From Methylacidiphilum kamchatkense Kam1 (GTDB lineage Bacteria; Verrucomicrobiota; Verrucomicrobiia; Methylacidiphilales; Methylacidiphilaceae), in NCBI RefSeq assembly GCF_007475525.1, contig NZ_CP037899.1:682001-746000 (forward strand): a stretch of DNA of 64,000 bases, given 5' to 3'. A program made the translations under genes and the position numbers. Shown here piece after piece: positions 4,808 to 59,340 of the stretch (within the stretch, counting starts at the first letter, position 1; each line of letters begins with the position of its first letter). The notes beneath the pieces are model-generated. The model was not told the DNA's origin and made no database searches. It saw nothing but the letters and a program-made list of their open reading frames with translations.

Positions 4808-4819
4808 GCATCCAAAAGG

Positions 4820-4907
4820 CCAAGGACAGTAACAGATAAGGTCAAGATACCGTTGCTTCCTTTCGGACCTGGCGGGGTTAGCCTGCCTCTATCTTTACTG
4901 TCCTTGG
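4820..4907 (-). ncRNA. ffs: Signal recognition particle RNA, short 4.5S type
   Basis: Read on the minus strand, the apical part carries the conserved SRP sequence 'AGGTCCGAAAGGAAGCAAC', including the GGAA tetraloop-type core and the asymmetric loop bound by Ffh. The two ends (4820-4832 and 4895-4907) are perfectly complementary ('CCAAGGACAGTAA' with its complement), closing one long hairpin of about 88 bases. There is no Alu domain. The RNA with Ffh targets membrane proteins to FtsY, also encoded here at 17943. It lies 5' of dnaX, a common order. Ends are set by the pairing. Confidence 0.93.
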
Positions 4908-4986
4908 TAAATTAAATAGTAATCGAACTTTCTCTTCGTGTAAAAGAACAAAATAAAAATAAAAAAAATAGATAATAACAATGCAG

Positions 4987-5012
4987 GACTCCCTTAAAAG
5001 AAGGAGGGAGTC
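4987..5012 (-). terminator. Hairpin terminator after the lipoprotein gene
   Basis: An 8-bp inverted repeat ('gactccct' at 4987-4994 and 'agggagtc' at 5005-5012) lies about 40 bases beyond the stop of the lipoprotein gene at 5052. On the minus strand a T-rich stretch follows after about 18 bases. Plausible intrinsic terminator separating that gene from ffs-dnaX; the T tract is not immediately adjacent, so it is moderate. Confidence 0.5.
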
Positions 5013-5051
5013 TAAAGAACTCGTTTTTTTCTATTCTTGTCTCCTCTACCT

Positions 5052-5537
5052 TTATGGCTCTTTTTCAGGAGCTGGAGTTTGCGGCTGATTTGCTGGAGCC
5101 TGAGGCTGAGCTTGTTGTTCTAGATTATTCTCTAGACTTTCAGCTTTCTGTTTTGCTTCTTTTTCAACAGAGTCTGCCTCTTTTTTTACTTCCTGCTGTA
5201 TAGTCTGTTCGGGAGCAGGGGCTTTTGTTTGTTCTTGCTCTCCAGGCTTAGAAGAAGCTGCTGGACTACTTTCTTCCTTCTGCTTTGGTGCCGAAAACTC
5301 CGGAGAAGGCAGCGCTGGCTCCTGAGAAGAGGATTCTTGTGAGGCGGTAGCTTCTTCCTTTTTTTTATCGGGATTTGCATCTCCGCTTTTAGGAGAAGGG
5401 TTGCAACCGATTAAAAAAGAAAACATTAGAAAGGGTAAGAAGAGCTTTTTCCAGTTTGAAATATATCGAGAACATTTCGAATAATTTTTCAATTTATGCA
5501 TGTGAAAACCTATTTTCGGGTTAAATTTGGCATACAT
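5052..5537 (-). CDS. Pro/Glu/Lys-rich hypothetical lipoprotein
   Basis: Up to 161 residues. A hydrophobic stretch ending in a lipobox ('LMFSFLIGC', Cys at about residue 45) points to lipidation and anchoring in the envelope. The rest is low-complexity: repeats of E, Q, P, A, K and S ('KEEATASQESSSQEPALPSP'), with one probable coiled-coil piece ('KKEADSVEKEAKQKAESLEN'). No domain is recognised. The true start is unclear: the ATG at 5537 gives a long pre-signal region, and internal Met codons lie closer to the hydrophobic part. It may span or crowd the periplasm; function unknown. Confidence 0.6.
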   Translation of the reverse strand: MYAKFNPKIGFHMHKLKNYSKCSRYISNWKKLFLPFLMFSFLIGCNPSPKSGDANPDKKKEEATASQESSSQEPALPSPEFSAPKQKEESSPAASSKPGEQEQTKAPAPEQTIQQEVKKEADSVEKEAKQKAESLENNLEQQAQPQAPANQPQTPAPEKEP

Positions 5538-5594
5538 TAAACAAAACTTGTTATTAAGATGTCAATTCAAGAGGAATGCATTAGAAAAAAAATG

Positions 5595-6860
5595 TTATTT
5601 ATCAAATGACAATGGGAATCTACTGGTTAGTTCTAAGACCGATTGCCTAATTTTTTCTAGCGTCTTAGGATCTTTCCTATGCATTAGTGCCTGATGAATC
5701 CATTCAGCAATATCAAACATCTCGTTTTCCTTCATTCCACGTGTAGTGACCGCGGGCGAACCTATGCGGATCCCTCCTCCTTGGTAGGGAGGAACCGTAT
5801 CAAAAGGAATTGTGTTTTTGTTCACTGTAATCCCAACGGAATCTAGAATATCCTGAGCCTCTTTTCCTGTAATACCAAGAGGTCTAAGATCTACAAGAAT
5901 AAGATGATTTTCTGTTCCGCCAGAGACAAGCCGGTATCCATTTTTTTTCAGCCCCTCGGCTAAGGCTTTTGCATTTTTTATCACCTGCTTTTGATATTCG
6001 ATAAAAGACTCTTGCAAAGCTTCATGAAAGCAAACGGCCTTGGCAGCGATCACATGAACTAAAGGACCACCTTGAATACCGGGAAAGACTTGACTGTCAA
6101 TTTCTTTCCCATACTTGGCTTTGGCGAAGATAACTCCACCTCGTGGCCCTCGCAAAGTTTTATGCGTGGTCGTAGTGACAAAGTCTGCATAGGGTATCGG
6201 GGAAGGATGAAGTCCAGTAGCCACAAGCCCAGCTATGTGGGCCATATCGACCATGAGATAAGCCCCAACGCTGTCTGCAATACTTTTAAGCCTTGGAAAA
6301 TCTATTATCACAGGGTAAGCGGAAGCTCCAGCGATGAGCATCTTTGGCTTGTGTTCTCTAACGGCTGCTTCCAGGCTATCATAATCGATTCTTTCATCTT
6401 TTGGACTAACACCGTAATGGAAAACGTGGAAAAATTTCCCTGAAAAATTCATCTTAAACCCATGAGTCAAATGTCCACCATGACTAAGATCCATGCTCAT
6501 GATGGTATCAAAGGGTTTAAGCATCGCAAAATAGACAGCCATGTTGGCTTGAGAACCTGAATGAGGCTGAACGTTCACGTATTCGGCTTTGAAAAGCTCT
6601 TTAGCCCTTTCTATCGCAAGGGACTCAATTTCATCAACATTTTCACAGCCGCCATACCATCTTCTTCCTGGATAGCCTTCGGCATACTTGTTCGTGAGGC
6701 AGCTGCCTTGGGCTTCCATGACTGCAGGACTTGTAAAGTTTTCAGAAGCAATGAGTTCGAGGTTTTGCTTTTGTCTTTGTGCTTCCTTTTTTATAAGGAA
6801 GTAAATTTTTGGATCATTTTGAGCTAAGGCTGATTCGAAATGGGGATGTTGACTATGCAT
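5595..6860 (-). CDS. glyA: Serine hydroxymethyltransferase
   Basis: Converts serine and tetrahydrofolate to glycine and 5,10-methylene-THF; a cytosolic PLP enzyme. Landmarks: '[20 protein letters not shown]', '[20 protein letters not shown]', '[20 protein letters not shown]', the PLP-lysine motif '[14 protein letters not shown]', and 'AVTTRGMKE' near the end. With ATG 6860 the protein is 421 residues, the family norm. The frame stays open to a TTG at 6992, which would add 44 non-family residues but leave only 11 bases to the upstream PTP-RpiB gene. Neither start has a good ribosome site. The rpiB/PTP/glyA neighbourhood is also seen in Firmicutes. Confidence 0.96.
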
Positions 6861-31306: not shown

Positions 31307-31999
31307 CTAATCGGTAAACAGAGAGAAAAAATCTTTTACACAAGCAAGGTCTTTAAAAGAGTAATCAGGTTTGTATTGGTCAAGCTCCTCCTTGCTGAAG
31401 CCTCCAGTAGCCACAGCAATCGAAGTAAAACCTGCAAATTTAGCGCAAAGAACATCATGGGGAGTGTCTCCCACTACCCAAAAATTCTTTTTTTCAATGA
31501 CTTGACCGAACATTGCCATAACAAGCTCAGCAGCCATACTGGCTAAATAATTTCTTGATTCATGAAGATCACCGAACAGCCCAAAAGAGAAATAGGTCCA
31601 TACCCTATAATAGGAAAGTTTGATCTGAGCAGCTTTTCTGAAATTACCTGTCAAAAGCCCCATTTTGACAGAAGAGATAGTACTTATTGTTTGCAAAATA
31701 TCTAATATTCCTGGACAAAGCTTCCCTGTATCCTGACTAGTAAGTTCTTCCCGGAGAACTTTCAAATAATGATTTCTGTAAATGGAAAGGTTTTCAGGGG
31801 TCCATGGCACCTGGCATCTATTCAAAATTTGTTTTGCGATCATGAGATCTGTTCTTCCCCGATAGTCTAGTTCTTTGGGATGCACCTCTATATTATACAG
31901 TTCATTGATAGTCCGAAAAATGGCTCTTACTCCGCTACCACTAGAATGGATAAGAGTGCCATCGATATCCCATAGAATGATATGCTTTGTTTTTGGCAT
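31307..31999 (-). CDS. HAD-superfamily hydrolase (phosphoglycolate phosphatase-like)
   Basis: 230 residues. HAD motif I 'IILWDIDGTLIHSSGSG' (DxDGT), a helical cap, motif II 'MGLLTGNFRKAAQIKL', and motif III/IV 'WVVGDTPHDVLCAKFAGFTS' with 'IAVATGG'. Likely phosphomonoesterase; phosphoglycolate phosphatase (Gph) is a guess only. It lies directly upstream of the flavoprotein gene and downstream of fabI with about 34 bases between, so a common operon is likely. Confidence 0.87.
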   Translation of the reverse strand: MPKTKHIILWDIDGTLIHSSGSGVRAIFRTINELYNIEVHPKELDYRGRTDLMIAKQILNRCQVPWTPENLSIYRNHYLKVLREELTSQDTGKLCPGILDILQTISTISSVKMGLLTGNFRKAAQIKLSYYRVWTYFSFGLFGDLHESRNYLASMAAELVMAMFGQVIEKKNFWVVGDTPHDVLCAKFAGFTSIAVATGGFSKEELDQYKPDYSFKDLACVKDFFSLFTD

Positions 32000-33688: not shown

Positions 33689-35626
33689 ATGAAACGAATA
33701 CTTATTTTGACGGCTGGTTTTGGAGAAGGTCATAATACTGCGGCACGGAATATACAGGAAGCCATTGAACATCTGGAGCCGGACGAGGCGATTGTTGATC
33801 GGATTGATCTTTTTGATACCTGTTATGGCAAGTTCAGCGATCTGTTGCGACAAGGCTATCTAACAGCCATTAATCGTGCCCCATTAATTTGGAGAGGGAT
33901 TTATTCCATCTTTGATCGTACGAGTTTTATAGAAGACGTACTGGTGGCTTTTGCCAAAATGAAGCAGGCCTTGGACTGGTTGCTGAGAGAAATGCAACCT
34001 GACGTCGTGCTGTCGACATATCCTTTCTATAATTTTCTGATAGAAGAGATCTTTAAGGACGGGAAGGAAAAAAACTTTGTTCAAATAACCGTCATCACTG
34101 ATTCAATCACCGTCAATTCTTTTTGGTATAGGAGTTGGAGCGATTATTTTGTAGTGCCTAATAAAGATACGGCTAGCATTTTAAAATCAGCAGGCATAGC
34201 TGAGGAGAGGATTCTTGAATTTGGTTTTCCTGTCCAACTTGAATTTTTGGAGTATGCTCAAAACTCCATGCCTTTAGAACCCCTACAACAGCCCAAGATT
34301 TTATATATAATCAATTCGGGAAGGAAAAAAGCATCAAAAATTATTGATCAACTCTTATCCAGGAAGAATTGGGAAGCAACGATCGTTGTGGGAAAAGACG
34401 AAAAGCTCTTTTGCAATATTGCTGATCATGTTAAAGGCTTTGAAGAACGGATTAAAGTTTTGGGATGGACAGATAAAATTCCCGAGCTTTTGCTCAGTCA
34501 TCATGTGGTTATTAGCAAAGCAGGTGGTGCTACGGTGCAGGAAGCTATCGCAGCTTGTTGCCCAATGATTATTCCACAAGTTGTTCCTGGTCAAGAAGAA
34601 GGAAATTATGAATTTTTACGGAGATACGAAGTGGCTTGTTTTGCTGAAAAGCCATCGGATATCGGATCAGCCCTGGACTTTTTATTTGAAAACGAGGCTA
34701 AGCATTGGAAAAAATTAAAGAATAATCTTAAAAAAATTAGCAAGCCAGACAGCTCTCTTAAAATAGCTCAGTTTGTCCTAGAACAATCTGTTTTGGAAAT
34801 AGCTTCTTCGAGGGTTTTCCCTTTTCCTGGGAAAAGGCTTGAAAATATCCATTTTTCGGTGACCCAAGCGAAAAGCTCTCAAGCGTTACTGTGCGATTTT
34901 CATATTCATTCCACTTATTCTGATGGGAGGTTATCCATAGGAGAGATCGTGGATTTTTATGGACAGCGCGGTTTTGATTGTATCTGTGTGACCGATCATC
35001 TGGTTGATAGAAAAAGATTGATCGGTAAGTTCTGCGAACTCACTGGGCTTGTATTGACACCGACTAAAGTCGGAGAGTATTTCGAAACGATAGAGAAAGA
35101 AAAGAAAAGAGCATGGAAAAAATATGAAATGATTCTCTTCTGCGGAATAGAATTTAACAAAGACGGATATAGTCCAAAAACCTCTGCGCATCTACTGGGG
35201 ATCGATCTTAAAAGCCCAATTGATCCATGCCTTTCGTTAAAGGACATTATTGCTGAGATCCATAAACAAAACGGCCTTGCTGTTGCCTCTCATCCACACA
35301 TTTTCCAAAGTGTTTGGGGGCCGAACACTCTATTTTTATGGGAAAATCAGGAAGAATATGCTCCATTGCTTGATGCCTGGGAGGTGGCAAATCGGTATGA
35401 TCTATTTTCTCCCATAGGCTTAAAAAAACTGCCTTTTATTGCCAACAGTGATTTTCATAAGCCAAAGCACATCCATTCCTGGAAAACAATCCTCCATTGT
35501 GCAAAAGACGCGGATGAAATCAAAGAATGTATTCGTTCCAATAGGAATGTTGCCATAACCCTTTACCGGGATCACAAGTTCGGCACGATCTTTCAAAAGA
35601 AGGATATTGAGCTGGAAATTGCCTAA
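33689..35626 (+). CDS. Diacylglycerol-glycosyltransferase-like domain fused to a PHP phosphoesterase domain
   Basis: 645 residues, two parts. Residues 1-370 follow the MGDG-synthase/MurG-like GT28 pattern: 'RILILTAGFGEGHNTAARNI', 'QPDVVLSTYPFYNFLIEEI', 'QITVITDSITVNSFWYRSWS', 'VPNKDTASILKSAGIAEERI' and the sugar-nucleotide site 'VVISKAGGATVQEAIAACCP'. Residues 405-640 are a PHP domain: 'LCDFHIHSTYSDGRLSIGEI', 'CVTDHLVD', 'GIEFNKDGYSPKTSAHLLGI', 'ASHPHIF' and 'FIANSDFHKPKHI', with the metal His/Asp set kept. The first should glycosylate a lipid; the second should cleave a phosphoester. I know no standard function for the pair. Upstream of birA. Confidence 0.85.
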   Translation: MKRILILTAGFGEGHNTAARNIQEAIEHLEPDEAIVDRIDLFDTCYGKFSDLLRQGYLTAINRAPLIWRGIYSIFDRTSFIEDVLVAFAKMKQALDWLLREMQPDVVLSTYPFYNFLIEEIFKDGKEKNFVQITVITDSITVNSFWYRSWSDYFVVPNKDTASILKSAGIAEERILEFGFPVQLEFLEYAQNSMPLEPLQQPKILYIINSGRKKASKIIDQLLSRKNWEATIVVGKDEKLFCNIADHVKGFEERIKVLGWTDKIPELLLSHHVVISKAGGATVQEAIAACCPMIIPQVVPGQEEGNYEFLRRYEVACFAEKPSDIGSALDFLFENEAKHWKKLKNNLKKISKPDSSLKIAQFVLEQSVLEIASSRVFPFPGKRLENIHFSVTQAKSSQALLCDFHIHSTYSDGRLSIGEIVDFYGQRGFDCICVTDHLVDRKRLIGKFCELTGLVLTPTKVGEYFETIEKEKKRAWKKYEMILFCGIEFNKDGYSPKTSAHLLGIDLKSPIDPCLSLKDIIAEIHKQNGLAVASHPHIFQSVWGPNTLFLWENQEEYAPLLDAWEVANRYDLFSPIGLKKLPFIANSDFHKPKHIHSWKTILHCAKDADEIKECIRSNRNVAITLYRDHKFGTIFQKKDIELEIA

Positions 35627-35642
35627 CGCTTCGTTGAGTCGA

Positions 35643-36623
35643 ATGATATTGCCTTCTTGCGCTCCTTCTTCCACCGAATTCCAACTATTAAAACGGCTGC
35701 TTGCCAATAGGAATTGCAAGCTTGCTTTCCGTGATCTATTAGCAGCAGTTCAATCAGATGAAAAGGAAGTGTGGGAAAGTCTTTGCAGGTTGCAAGAACA
35801 AGGGTTTGTCATTAATTGCTCTCCTGTAGTGGGGATATCTCTTGAGGATCCTTTACCAGATATCCTCCATCCGGTAGAACTCCAGATTCTGTTGGAAAGG
35901 CGGGAGTTTCACATCCGTTGGAAACCAGAAATTTTCCAAGTAATTGGTTCGACAAATGACGAAGTAATTAAGCAGGCAAAGAGAGGGGCTAAGGAAGGGC
36001 TTGTTGTCGTCTCTGATAGACAACTGAAGGGAAGAGGAAGACAAGGTCGATCATGGGAATCTTTCCTTCCCTTAGGTCTTTATATGACAGCGCTATTGCG
36101 ACCAAAGTGGCCAGTAGCCAATCCTCAACAATTGGCTATCTTAAGCTCTCTTTCTGCGGCGGAAGCCTTATTTCAAATGGGTTTGAAAACTGTGGCTATT
36201 AAATGGCCTAATGATATCGTTGTTGGTGCTAAAAAGCTTGGAGGAATACTGATAGAAATCGATCGGGATGAAGGTGGAAATTGGTTTGCTGCAATAGGCA
36301 TTGGAATTAACCTGAATCAACACACAATCCACTTTTCAGAATCCTTGCAAGCAAAAGCCACCTCCTTTTACTTGGAGACAGGGAAAAAGGTGCGGAGAGT
36401 GGAGCTTTTGATTGAAATCCTCAGTCAACTAGATCGGAATTCGCAGCGATCTTTTGGCGCAATCAAGTCATTGTGGGAAAAAAGAATGGTGCAGTGGAAT
36501 GAGAAGGTTGTTTTCGAAGCAAATGGTCAAAAAATGGTAGGACGAATGATAGGTATTGATGAAACAGGTTGTTTGCTTATTGAGAGTGAAAGTGGAAGCA
36601 TCCAGAAAATTTTTTCAATTTGA
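35643..36623 (+). CDS. birA: Biotin-[acetyl-CoA carboxylase] ligase
   Basis: About 326 residues from ATG 35643; a TTG at 35607 with AAGGA just before it would add 12 and overlap the previous gene. N-terminal winged helix (about 1-60, 'AFRDLLAAVQSDEKEVWESL') suggests a repressor function as in E. coli BirA. Ligase core: 'EIFQVIGSTNDEVIKQAK', 'VVSDRQLKGRGRQGRSWESF' (biotin/ATP loop), 'TVAIKWPNDIVVGAKKLGGI' and 'IGIGINLNQH'. C-terminal SH3-like part 'NEKVVFEANGQKMVGRMIGI'. Biotinylates AccB (26167). Confidence 0.93.
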   Translation: MILPSCAPSSTEFQLLKRLLANRNCKLAFRDLLAAVQSDEKEVWESLCRLQEQGFVINCSPVVGISLEDPLPDILHPVELQILLERREFHIRWKPEIFQVIGSTNDEVIKQAKRGAKEGLVVVSDRQLKGRGRQGRSWESFLPLGLYMTALLRPKWPVANPQQLAILSSLSAAEALFQMGLKTVAIKWPNDIVVGAKKLGGILIEIDRDEGGNWFAAIGIGINLNQHTIHFSESLQAKATSFYLETGKKVRRVELLIEILSQLDRNSQRSFGAIKSLWEKRMVQWNEKVVFEANGQKMVGRMIGIDETGCLLIESESGSIQKIFSI

Positions 36624-42769: not shown

Positions 42770-44605
42770 ATGGCAACTCTAATAGATCGGCTTAATGAAT
42801 CTCTGCTTATTGGCGATGGTGCTTTGGGGACCTATCTTTATTCTCTTGGCATTCCGAGAGGCTATTGTATTGAAGAATTAAGTCTTTCTCATCCTAACTT
42901 ATTGGAAAAGGTTCATCGAGACTATATCGATGCGGGGGCAAAAATTATCCGAACCAATACGGCCGAAGCGAATGCCTACCACTTGTCGTTTTTCAAATTG
43001 GAAAAGAAGCTCAAAGAAATCGTTGGCCGCTCCGTGCAGCTAGCCAGGAAAGCTCTTGGATCCAGAGAAGGGTGGATTGCGGGCACAGTGGGTCCTATCT
43101 GGACTAAGCCTACTGAATCGCCAATCGATATGGCTACAAGACAAAGCCTCTATGAAGAGTTGATTGCCTCTCTAATTGAGGAAGGAGTAGATCTTCTTTT
43201 TTTTGAGACTTTTACCGAGCTTTCCGAACTTTTGCTTGTACTAGATATTGCTCGCAAAAAAGGAGCAGACAAGCTCTTTGCTTTTATCGCCTCCTTTGAA
43301 GAAGGAAAATTGTCGAGTGGGGAGACCCTTGGAGAGGCTTTTTCAAAACTCAGACATGCAGGGGCTACCCTTGTGGGGATCAATGGCGCATGCGGTGTCC
43401 AAGCTTCGATTCATCTTTTAGAGGAGATTGAGCTAAAGGCCGGGGAGTTTCTAGGTGCCTATCCGAATGCTGGTAAACCTGAATTTTATGATGGGACATT
43501 TACCTACTCCGCCAGTCCTTCGTATTTTGGAGAGAATGTTGCAAGATTTGCTGAAGAAGGAGTCTGCCTGCTTGGAGGGGATTACGGCACGGAGCCAGCG
43601 CATATAGCGGCGATGGCTCAAAGAGCCGCGACGATTAAGCCCCTCAAAGAAAAACCACCTAAAAGAAGGCCTCGCTATCTGGTTTCCGAACAGGAGGTTT
43701 TGCCGCAGATTGAACCATCCCTTCTTGATCTGTTAGCCCTAAAGCCTGTTTTCATGGTCGAGTATGATTCTCCTAAGACTTTAGCAATCGGAAAGTTCCT
43801 TGAGGGAGTCAAGGCAATTGAAAAAGCTGGGGCTGATGCGATAACATTGGCTGATAACTCACTTGCGATTTTAAGGATCAGTAACTTTGCAGCAGCCATT
43901 CATGTTAGAAGAGTTTCCAAAATGATTCCTATCCTCCATATAGCTTGCCGGGATAGGAATCTTTTAGGATTGCAATCGGAGTTGATGGGGCTGGGAACCT
44001 TAGGGTTCAGACATATACTGGCCCTGACAGGAGATCCAGCAAAATCTGGCGATCATCCGGGAGCTACATCAGTCTATGATCTTAATTCTATTGGATTAAT
44101 CCGACTGCTTGCTAGTTTAAATAGAGGATTTAATGCCGCTGGAAAAGATCTGAAAGGTAAAACGGATTTTATCATTGGCTGTGCTTTTAATCCGAATACT
44201 TCCCAGTTTGAAGCCCAGGTAAAAAAATTGGAGGCTAAGCTGGCAGCTGGAGCGCAGTTTGTTATGACACAACCCATATTCGATATCCAGCTTATCAAAA
44301 AGACCTATAATTATCTAAAACCTTTGGGCATTCCCGTATTTATTGGGCTAATGCCCCTTTTAAACTACCGAAACGCCGAGTTCCTTCATAATGAGGTACC
44401 GGGGATTTCTATACCTGAAGCTGTACGTGAAAAATTGAAAGCAGTAGATGGGGAAAAAGCTATGGAGGTAGGTGTGGGATTTGCACAAGTACTTGGGGAA
44501 GAAATTCTTTCGCTTTTCAAAGGCATTTATCTAATCACTCCTTTTCTCCGGTATGATATTTCGGTCAGGCTTTTGGAATTGCTCTTTAGTAGGAAAAAAT
44601 CTTAG
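42770..44605 (+). CDS. Bifunctional homocysteine S-methyltransferase / methylenetetrahydrofolate reductase
   Basis: 611 residues. Residues 1-300 are a homocysteine-methyltransferase barrel: 'LIGDGALGTYLYSLGIPRGY', 'GAKIIRTNTAEANAYHL', 'GTVGPIWTKPTE' and 'FLGAYPNAGKPEFYDG'. Residues 320-611 are an MTHFR barrel: 'FMVEYDSPKTLAIGKFLEGV', 'ILHIACRDRNLLGLQSELMG', 'ALTGDPAKSGDHPGATSVYD' and 'AAGAQFVMTQPIFDIQ'. The zinc site looks wrong: the usual GGCCGT reads 'GGDYGTEPAHI' and the first ligand block GxNC reads 'GINGACG'. The MTHFR half should work; methyl transfer is doubtful. Confidence 0.9.
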   Translation: MATLIDRLNESLLIGDGALGTYLYSLGIPRGYCIEELSLSHPNLLEKVHRDYIDAGAKIIRTNTAEANAYHLSFFKLEKKLKEIVGRSVQLARKALGSREGWIAGTVGPIWTKPTESPIDMATRQSLYEELIASLIEEGVDLLFFETFTELSELLLVLDIARKKGADKLFAFIASFEEGKLSSGETLGEAFSKLRHAGATLVGINGACGVQASIHLLEEIELKAGEFLGAYPNAGKPEFYDGTFTYSASPSYFGENVARFAEEGVCLLGGDYGTEPAHIAAMAQRAATIKPLKEKPPKRRPRYLVSEQEVLPQIEPSLLDLLALKPVFMVEYDSPKTLAIGKFLEGVKAIEKAGADAITLADNSLAILRISNFAAAIHVRRVSKMIPILHIACRDRNLLGLQSELMGLGTLGFRHILALTGDPAKSGDHPGATSVYDLNSIGLIRLLASLNRGFNAAGKDLKGKTDFIIGCAFNPNTSQFEAQVKKLEAKLAAGAQFVMTQPIFDIQLIKKTYNYLKPLGIPVFIGLMPLLNYRNAEFLHNEVPGISIPEAVREKLKAVDGEKAMEVGVGFAQVLGEEILSLFKGIYLITPFLRYDISVRLLELLFSRKKS

Positions 44606-59267: not shown

Positions 59268-59340
59268 TGCCGCGTGGTGCAATTGGTAGCACATCAGACT
59301 CTGGATCTGAGTGTTCTAGGTTCGAATCCTAGCGCGGCAG
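59268..59340 (+). tRNA. tRNA-Gln (anticodon CTG)
   Basis: Cloverleaf by eye: acceptor TGCCGCG at 59268-59274 pairs with CGCGGCA at 59333-59339, discriminator G. Anticodon stem TCAGA/TCTGA encloses loop CTCTGGA, anticodon CTG (reads CAG). T arm carries GGTTCGAATCC. A U1-A72 pair agrees with glutamine identity. The final CCA is not encoded. Confidence 0.95.

Follow-up and report, generated by a model that had tools for sequence, protein, structure and literature searches.

The gene examined here lies on the forward strand at positions 33689-35626 of the window, by which we mean the whole stretch of 64,000 nucleotides that was analysed, in the 2.2 Mb genome of Methylacidiphilum, a genus of acidophilic methanotrophs of the Verrucomicrobiota. 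The fusion of a GT28-like glycosyltransferase to a PHP phosphoesterase that the original prediction had described at this position is real: open reading frame, Pfam matches and colinear homologues all define a single protein of 645 aa with an ATG start. Its first half (residues 1-365; 33689-34783, + strand) is a GT-B domain of the MGDG-synthase/UgtP type, on the evidence of PF06925, PF04101, NF010135 and a structure match to 4wyi. In Pfam, MGDG_synth (PF06925) covered residues 15-182 with an E value of 1.2e-19 and 71.4 bits against a cut-off of 25, and Glyco_tran_28_C (PF04101) scored 24.9 bits against a cut-off of 22; relatives in the PDB were MGD1 (4wyi, E 9e-21) and 9wde, a processive DAG glucosyltransferase. 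The NCBIfam equivalogs for UgtP diglucosyl-DAG synthase stayed below their cut-offs (NF010135, 154.5 vs 500; NF010134, 93.1 vs 557). In the alignment to 4wyi, an N-terminal motif, GFGEGHN (residues 10-16; 33716-33736, +), fell on the GH motif of MGD1 and a C-terminal motif, PGQEEGN (residues 300-306; 34586-34606, +), on its GQE.GN segment. The family to which this half belongs contains enzymes that glycosylate diacylglycerol, and its sugar and acceptor here are predicted on that basis.

A variable and mostly disordered linker (residues 366-397; 34784-34879, +) leads into a PHP metal-dependent phosphoesterase domain of the TM0559 type (residues 398-633; 34880-35587, +), recognised from PF02811 (31.1 bits vs a cut-off of 26.4), from 2anu and from a structure match. 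The closest match of this half was TM0559 of Thermotoga maritima (2anu; E 7e-59, ~41% identity), and alignment placed all nine metal ligands of TM0559 in the Methylacidiphilum protein, so that the PHP domain with intact metal residues is also borne out: H405, H407 and D412 in DFHIHSTYSDG (34901-34924), H437 in TDH (34997-34999), E488 and H501 (35150-35191), H535 in SHPH (35291-35293), and D588 and H590 in NSDFH (35450-35458), all on the + strand. The best general models were of the CehA/McbA, PolX and HisJ types, all far under cut-off (44.1 vs 80 for the CehA/McbA metallohydrolase model NF038032), and Pfam found no match to Metallophos (PF00149) anywhere in the protein. The AlphaFold model (pLDDT 83.5, pTM 0.66) had residues 372-394 of the linker disordered at pLDDT <50. 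Residues 1-370 superposed on Arabidopsis MGD1 (4wyi) with a VIA Z of 34.4 and an rmsd of 2.5 over 316 residues, which together with the two Pfam matches upholds the assignment of the first half to the MGDG-synthase type, and residues 397-628 matched 2anu with a VIA Z of 32.5. On these domain matches, the protein is a member of the GT28/MGDG-synthase and PHP families and stands outside the PlcP family, although it may nevertheless do the job of PlcP.

Around the gene, the end of the fusion frame is overlapped by birA, encoding a biotin--protein ligase (35607-36623, +; TIGR00121, 155.7 bits). A functional link to BirA was considered and rejected as chance co-orientation, since the pairing did not recur outside close relatives, though the two genes share a strand and are possibly co-transcribed. 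Upstream, a HAD hydrolase gene (31307-31999, -) identified by Pfam and tblastn synteny marks the ancestral locus, its homologues flanking the GT28 gene in three related genomes (G078, G347 and G008). Elsewhere in the window, Rfam identified the bacterial small SRP RNA (4815-4909, -) and a tRNA gene (59268-59340, +), and positions 42770-44605 encode a homocysteine S-methyltransferase fused to methylenetetrahydrofolate reductase, which we take to be a known bifunctional arrangement. A second GT28 gene, resembling diglucosyl-DAG synthase, lies in an LPS-type cluster of the same genome (L159:7906-9086; C1, about 967900-969090); it is split over two frames here and forms a single open frame in G042 and G054, and would be either a pseudogene or a sequencing error.

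The fusion is conserved well beyond Methylacidiphilum. Full-length colinear homologues with 48-96% identity were present in six related genomes of the same genus, family and order, and a scan with the PHP half showed glycosyltransferase and PHP in one frame at 78 of 80 loci among the best 80 of 236 relatives, the two exceptions being L094, at a contig edge, and L051, where PHP had no detectable glycosyltransferase. Together, these observations rule out an assembly artefact. Essentially all of the best 80 of the 236 relatives were verrucomicrobial; some were MAGs that carry the names of other groups (Klebsiella, Proteobacteria), probably wrongly. The check on phylogenetic spread that the original prediction had called for thus shows a fusion found across many Verrucomicrobiota, in 72 of 384 sampled genomes of the class. 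No standalone PHP protein of the TM0559-like fusion type was detected in the plasmids searched, and strong matches within the class all lay in fusion-length frames, save contig-edge fragments and L051. In that locus, positions 4957-5889 encode a PHP of the same type apparently lacking the glycosyltransferase half, perhaps as a true standalone derivative, perhaps through a gap in the assembly. In a Methylacidimicrobium-like genome (G262), a partial, decayed copy of the GT28 half (L154:4717-5275) lies ~3 kb upstream of an intact fusion.

The two halves are not conserved to the same degree. Across an alignment of 43 diverse fusions, mean column conservation was 76% in the PHP domain, 60% in the glycosyltransferase domain and 27% in the linker, and the nine ligands H405, H407, D412, H437, E488, H501, H535, D588 and H590 were invariant in 43 of 43. 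The glycosyltransferase motifs were conserved in most fusions and degenerate in about 8 of the 43: they were lost in at least six (L039, L041, L043, L045, L049 and L074) and altered in two more (L052 and L091), with the PHP ligands kept throughout. This suggests that the PHP activity is the part that selection never lets go. Because the glycosyltransferase half looks inactive in several fusions, PHP does not necessarily supply the glycosyltransferase of its own chain in every case, and not all members can carry out a two-step reaction. Upstream of the fusion in two of the degenerate loci (L043 and L049) is a gene resembling lipase maturation factors, checked with Pfam for L043.

A calcineurin-like phosphoesterase stands out in the surroundings of GT28 genes without the PHP domain. 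The encoded proteins carry a GNHD motif, where the LpxH motif is GNRD, and an LpxH identity was rejected: scores were 25-43 bits against LpxH cut-offs of 134-190, and LpxH structures were only marginally similar, whereas a PlcP-type, plasmid-borne P. aeruginosa protein encoded beside a glycosyltransferase was 41-51% identical. The setting of this P. aeruginosa relative matches the published Pseudomonas arrangement, in which PlcP (PA3219) lies beside Agt1 (PA3218) (PMC8528852). PlcP turns phospholipids into diacylglycerol, the acceptor on which Agt places a sugar (PMC8528852, PMC9239053). In 11 genomes, the PlcP gene lay within about 2 kb of GT28 on the same contig; in others it adjoined a GT4 gene, once with phoU alongside, and in family f85 it was near a BtaA-type gene (G333 and G409). 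In Akkermansia-type genomes (L186-L195), PlcP is fused C-terminally to an Agt-like GT4 in one chain of ~650 aa (for example L186:2194-4149, -), and we know of no description of such a single-chain GT4-PlcP protein. Family f73 showed PlcP followed by another glycosyltransferase and then a GH1 gene (G482 and G292). These two runs belong to a recurring set of GH1-like genes beside the lipid glycosyltransferases, which also includes L042:6879-8126, L100:3052-4641, L107:3094-4689, L234, L235 and L159:6217-7842; plant SFR2, a galactolipid transferase, is likewise a GH1 protein.

The distribution of PlcP and of the fusion was mutually exclusive. The PlcP-like phosphoesterase occurred in 0 of 54 fusion genomes and in 36 of 42 genomes whose GT28 is unfused. 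Of the six GT28-only genomes without it, three are small (G036 and G057 at 0.9 Mb, G277 at 1.7 Mb) and three have only a distant GT28. Among the 384 class genomes, many of them MAGs and with counts inflated by kinship, the fusion was found in 72, PlcP in 195, both in 0 and neither in 117, these being genomes and not independent events; the corresponding Fisher p of about 1e-26 ignores kinship and is only descriptive. Three genera (g4, g167 and g190) and four families (f2, f73, f85 and f99) nevertheless hold both fusion genomes and PlcP genomes, never with both genes in one genome, which shows that deep ancestry alone does not account for the swap. In genus g4, the fusion of G078 lies beside a HAD gene, and G347 carries beside the same HAD gene a GT28 without PHP, with PlcP elsewhere in the genome. 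The G347 GT28 is nested inside the fusion clade of the GT28 tree with moderate support (SH-aLRT 87-92), so the PHP domain was most likely lost there. This swap between fusion and PlcP is the strongest evidence, and the genome comparisons indicate that the fusion alone performs the exchange of phosphorus-containing membrane lipids for sugar lipids that takes two proteins, PlcP and Agt, in other bacteria.

No conserved operon partner of the fusion emerged across the whole locus set; links to phosphate and lipid genes were scattered among loci and were therefore counted by homology. Genes for pst/phoU were near the fusion in six loci, against an expectation by chance of about 0.15 (~0.65 Mb of flank, on the rough assumption of one operon per 4-5 Mb genome). 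The pstSCAB-phoU genes directly follow the fusion in L104, directly precede it in L081 and adjoin it in L109. L085 has pstB-phoU two genes upstream of it, L089 has phoU ~3 kb away together with genes for a response regulator and a kinase, and L111 has pstS and a pstC-like gene nearby. The phosphate-regulon linkage typical of PlcP-Agt modules thus occurred in these six homologous loci and not in Methylacidiphilum itself, whose fusion gene has no adjacent phosphate genes. DUF3419 genes, of the BtaA family and hence betaine-lipid related, adjoined the fusion in L078 (with a methyltransferase) and L084. Ornithine-lipid genes were represented by OlsB-type acyltransferases near the fusion in L072, L075, L080 and L099, together with an OlsA-type gene in all of these but L099; these names hold only at family level because the scores were below NCBIfam equivalog cut-offs. 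Genes of these kinds go along with PlcP and phosphate starvation in Proteobacteria (PMC4796936). A response regulator consisting of a receiver domain only was found immediately upstream of the fusion in L065, L072, L075 and L080, with a receiver domain ~45-52% identical to that of the regulator after phoU in L104. Upstream of 20 fusion genes, the Pho box CTGTCAT-N4-CTGTCAT scored no better than in shuffles, this consensus being proteobacterial and possibly not verrucomicrobial; L100 and L107 share TTGTTAC-N4-TTGTCAC-like repeats upstream, which did not stand out by Pho-box score.

Taken together, these comparisons make it probable that the fusion combines the PlcP-Agt lipid-remodelling pair in one chain, with PHP in the place of PlcP. 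The PHP domain, which belongs to the trinuclear-metal phosphoesterases and is unrelated to PlcP, would cleave the phosphate head from a glycerophospholipid to yield diacylglycerol, acting either on PE/PG, like a phospholipase C, or on phosphatidic acid. The GT28 domain would then transfer a hexose from a UDP-sugar to this diacylglycerol, giving MGDG or MGlcDG, so that the two steps would leave a phosphorus-free glycolipid and freed phosphate, a likely means of replacing phospholipids when phosphate is scarce. Where the glycosyltransferase has decayed, the diacylglycerol might pass to other users such as a BtaA-type enzyme. We infer the PHP substrate (PE/PG or PA), the order of the steps, channelling and induction by phosphate starvation from the sequence comparisons, and the PlcP swap favours PE/PG, and thus a phospholipase C, over PA and a phosphatase. 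The membrane-lipid remodelling step of the original prediction accordingly gains partial support, from the pst/phoU, BtaA-type and OlsBA neighbours, the exclusion of PlcP and the analogous GT4-PlcP fusion. Its proposal that the phosphoesterase acts before the glycosyltransferase fits a context in which PHP prepares the lipid acceptor, but the chemistry may be phospholipase C action on PE/PG rather than simple dephosphorylation of PA.

That simpler chemistry, a phosphatidate phosphatase turning PA into DAG for constitutive glycolipid synthesis, neither a PlcP-like lipase nor tied to phosphate starvation, strikes us as unlikely, though it has points in its favour. It would supply DAG to the glycosyltransferase equally well, regulation by PA is a feature of the MGD synthases of plants, and both the lack of a recognisable Pho box, with the same reservation about the consensus, and the isolation of the Methylacidiphilum gene from phosphate genes would fit. 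However, the partner in the exclusion is PlcP, a phospholipase C, and not PAP2, and pst/phoU linkage recurs in the six other loci. The Methylacidiphilum genome encodes two PAP2 phosphatases; they could supply diacylglycerol, which counts against the preferred reading, and their coexistence with the fusion counts against PHP being a phosphatidate phosphatase. The substrates of characterised PHP enzymes are small phosphates, nucleic acids and phosphoproteins. PHP protein tyrosine phosphatases are the subject of two reports (PMC10816263, PMC6759763). A PHP domain directed at a signalling molecule, or at a water-soluble effector or by-product of the glycosyltransferase reaction (UDP, a sugar phosphate or a nucleotide bisphosphate), thereby relieving product inhibition or regulating the glycosyltransferase, would agree with these substrates and with the CehA/McbA, PolX and HisJ types being the best general models, far under cut-off as they are. 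We regard this as improbable, because it accounts neither for the fusion never coexisting with PlcP, nor for PHP conservation where glycosyltransferase motifs have decayed, nor for the BtaA/OlsBA neighbours. That the exclusion is a mere by-product of shared ancestry or habitat, with PHP in an unrelated housekeeping role, would suit the clustering of many counts by family and the 117 of 384 genomes with neither gene, but is very unlikely in view of the mixed genera and families and of G347, whose positional orthologue lacks PHP and whose genome has gained PlcP.

A broader form of the preferred reading, the PHP domain in the place of PlcP, is one on which we are evenly divided: that this PHP lineage may have become a phospholipase C for membrane phospholipids, several times replacing the unrelated PlcP in Verrucomicrobiota, and that, fused with an MGDG-synthase-type glycosyltransferase, it would convert phospholipid to glycolipid in one chain, perhaps with direct hand-over of diacylglycerol, and provide the methanotrophs of this phylum with a route to remodelling that they were believed to lack. 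We know of no PHP enzyme that acts on membrane phospholipids. Our search of the open-licence literature found no description of a GT-PHP fusion or of a PHP enzyme acting on membrane lipids, which is weak evidence of absence and agrees with the earlier statement that the pairing has no standard description. According to a methanotroph study of 2022, the PlcP route is missing from verrucomicrobial methanotrophs (PMC9239053), and replacement by PHP, if true, would fill that reported absence. As PlcP is the marker now used to trace how bacteria remodel their membrane lipids when phosphate is limiting, such a replacement would mean that PlcP-based surveys score a large phylum wrongly and that the PHP superfamily gains a lipid-active branch.

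Compared with known systems, the fusion most resembles the PlcP-Agt pair (PA3219-PA3218 in Pseudomonas; plcP-agt in Methylosinus, SAR11 and roseobacters), which likewise couples a phosphoesterase to a DAG glycosyltransferase in a gene context of phosphate regulon and phosphorus-free lipids, and whose PlcP the fusion replaces genome-wide. The pair differs in consisting of two proteins, a calcineurin-like phosphoesterase and a GT4 glycosyltransferase, whereas the fusion unites PHP with a GT28 of the MGDG-synthase type in a single chain. Plant MGD1 and bacterial UgtP-type enzymes share the GT-B fold and the GH and GQE.GN motifs with the glycosyltransferase half, but have no phosphoesterase domain and only 24% identity to it. 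TM0559 (2anu), at ~41% identity, shares the ligands and fold of the PHP half, yet is a standalone protein of unassigned substrate, in contrast to a PHP tied to GT28. The Akkermansia-type GT4-PlcP fusion, known here from sequence alone, has the same order of glycosyltransferase first and phosphoesterase second at a similar length of ~650 aa, with both domains drawn from other families. If our reading is true, the two would represent a convergent enzyme fusion, with PHP for the calcineurin-like domain and GT28 for GT4, each in one chain and in the same order.
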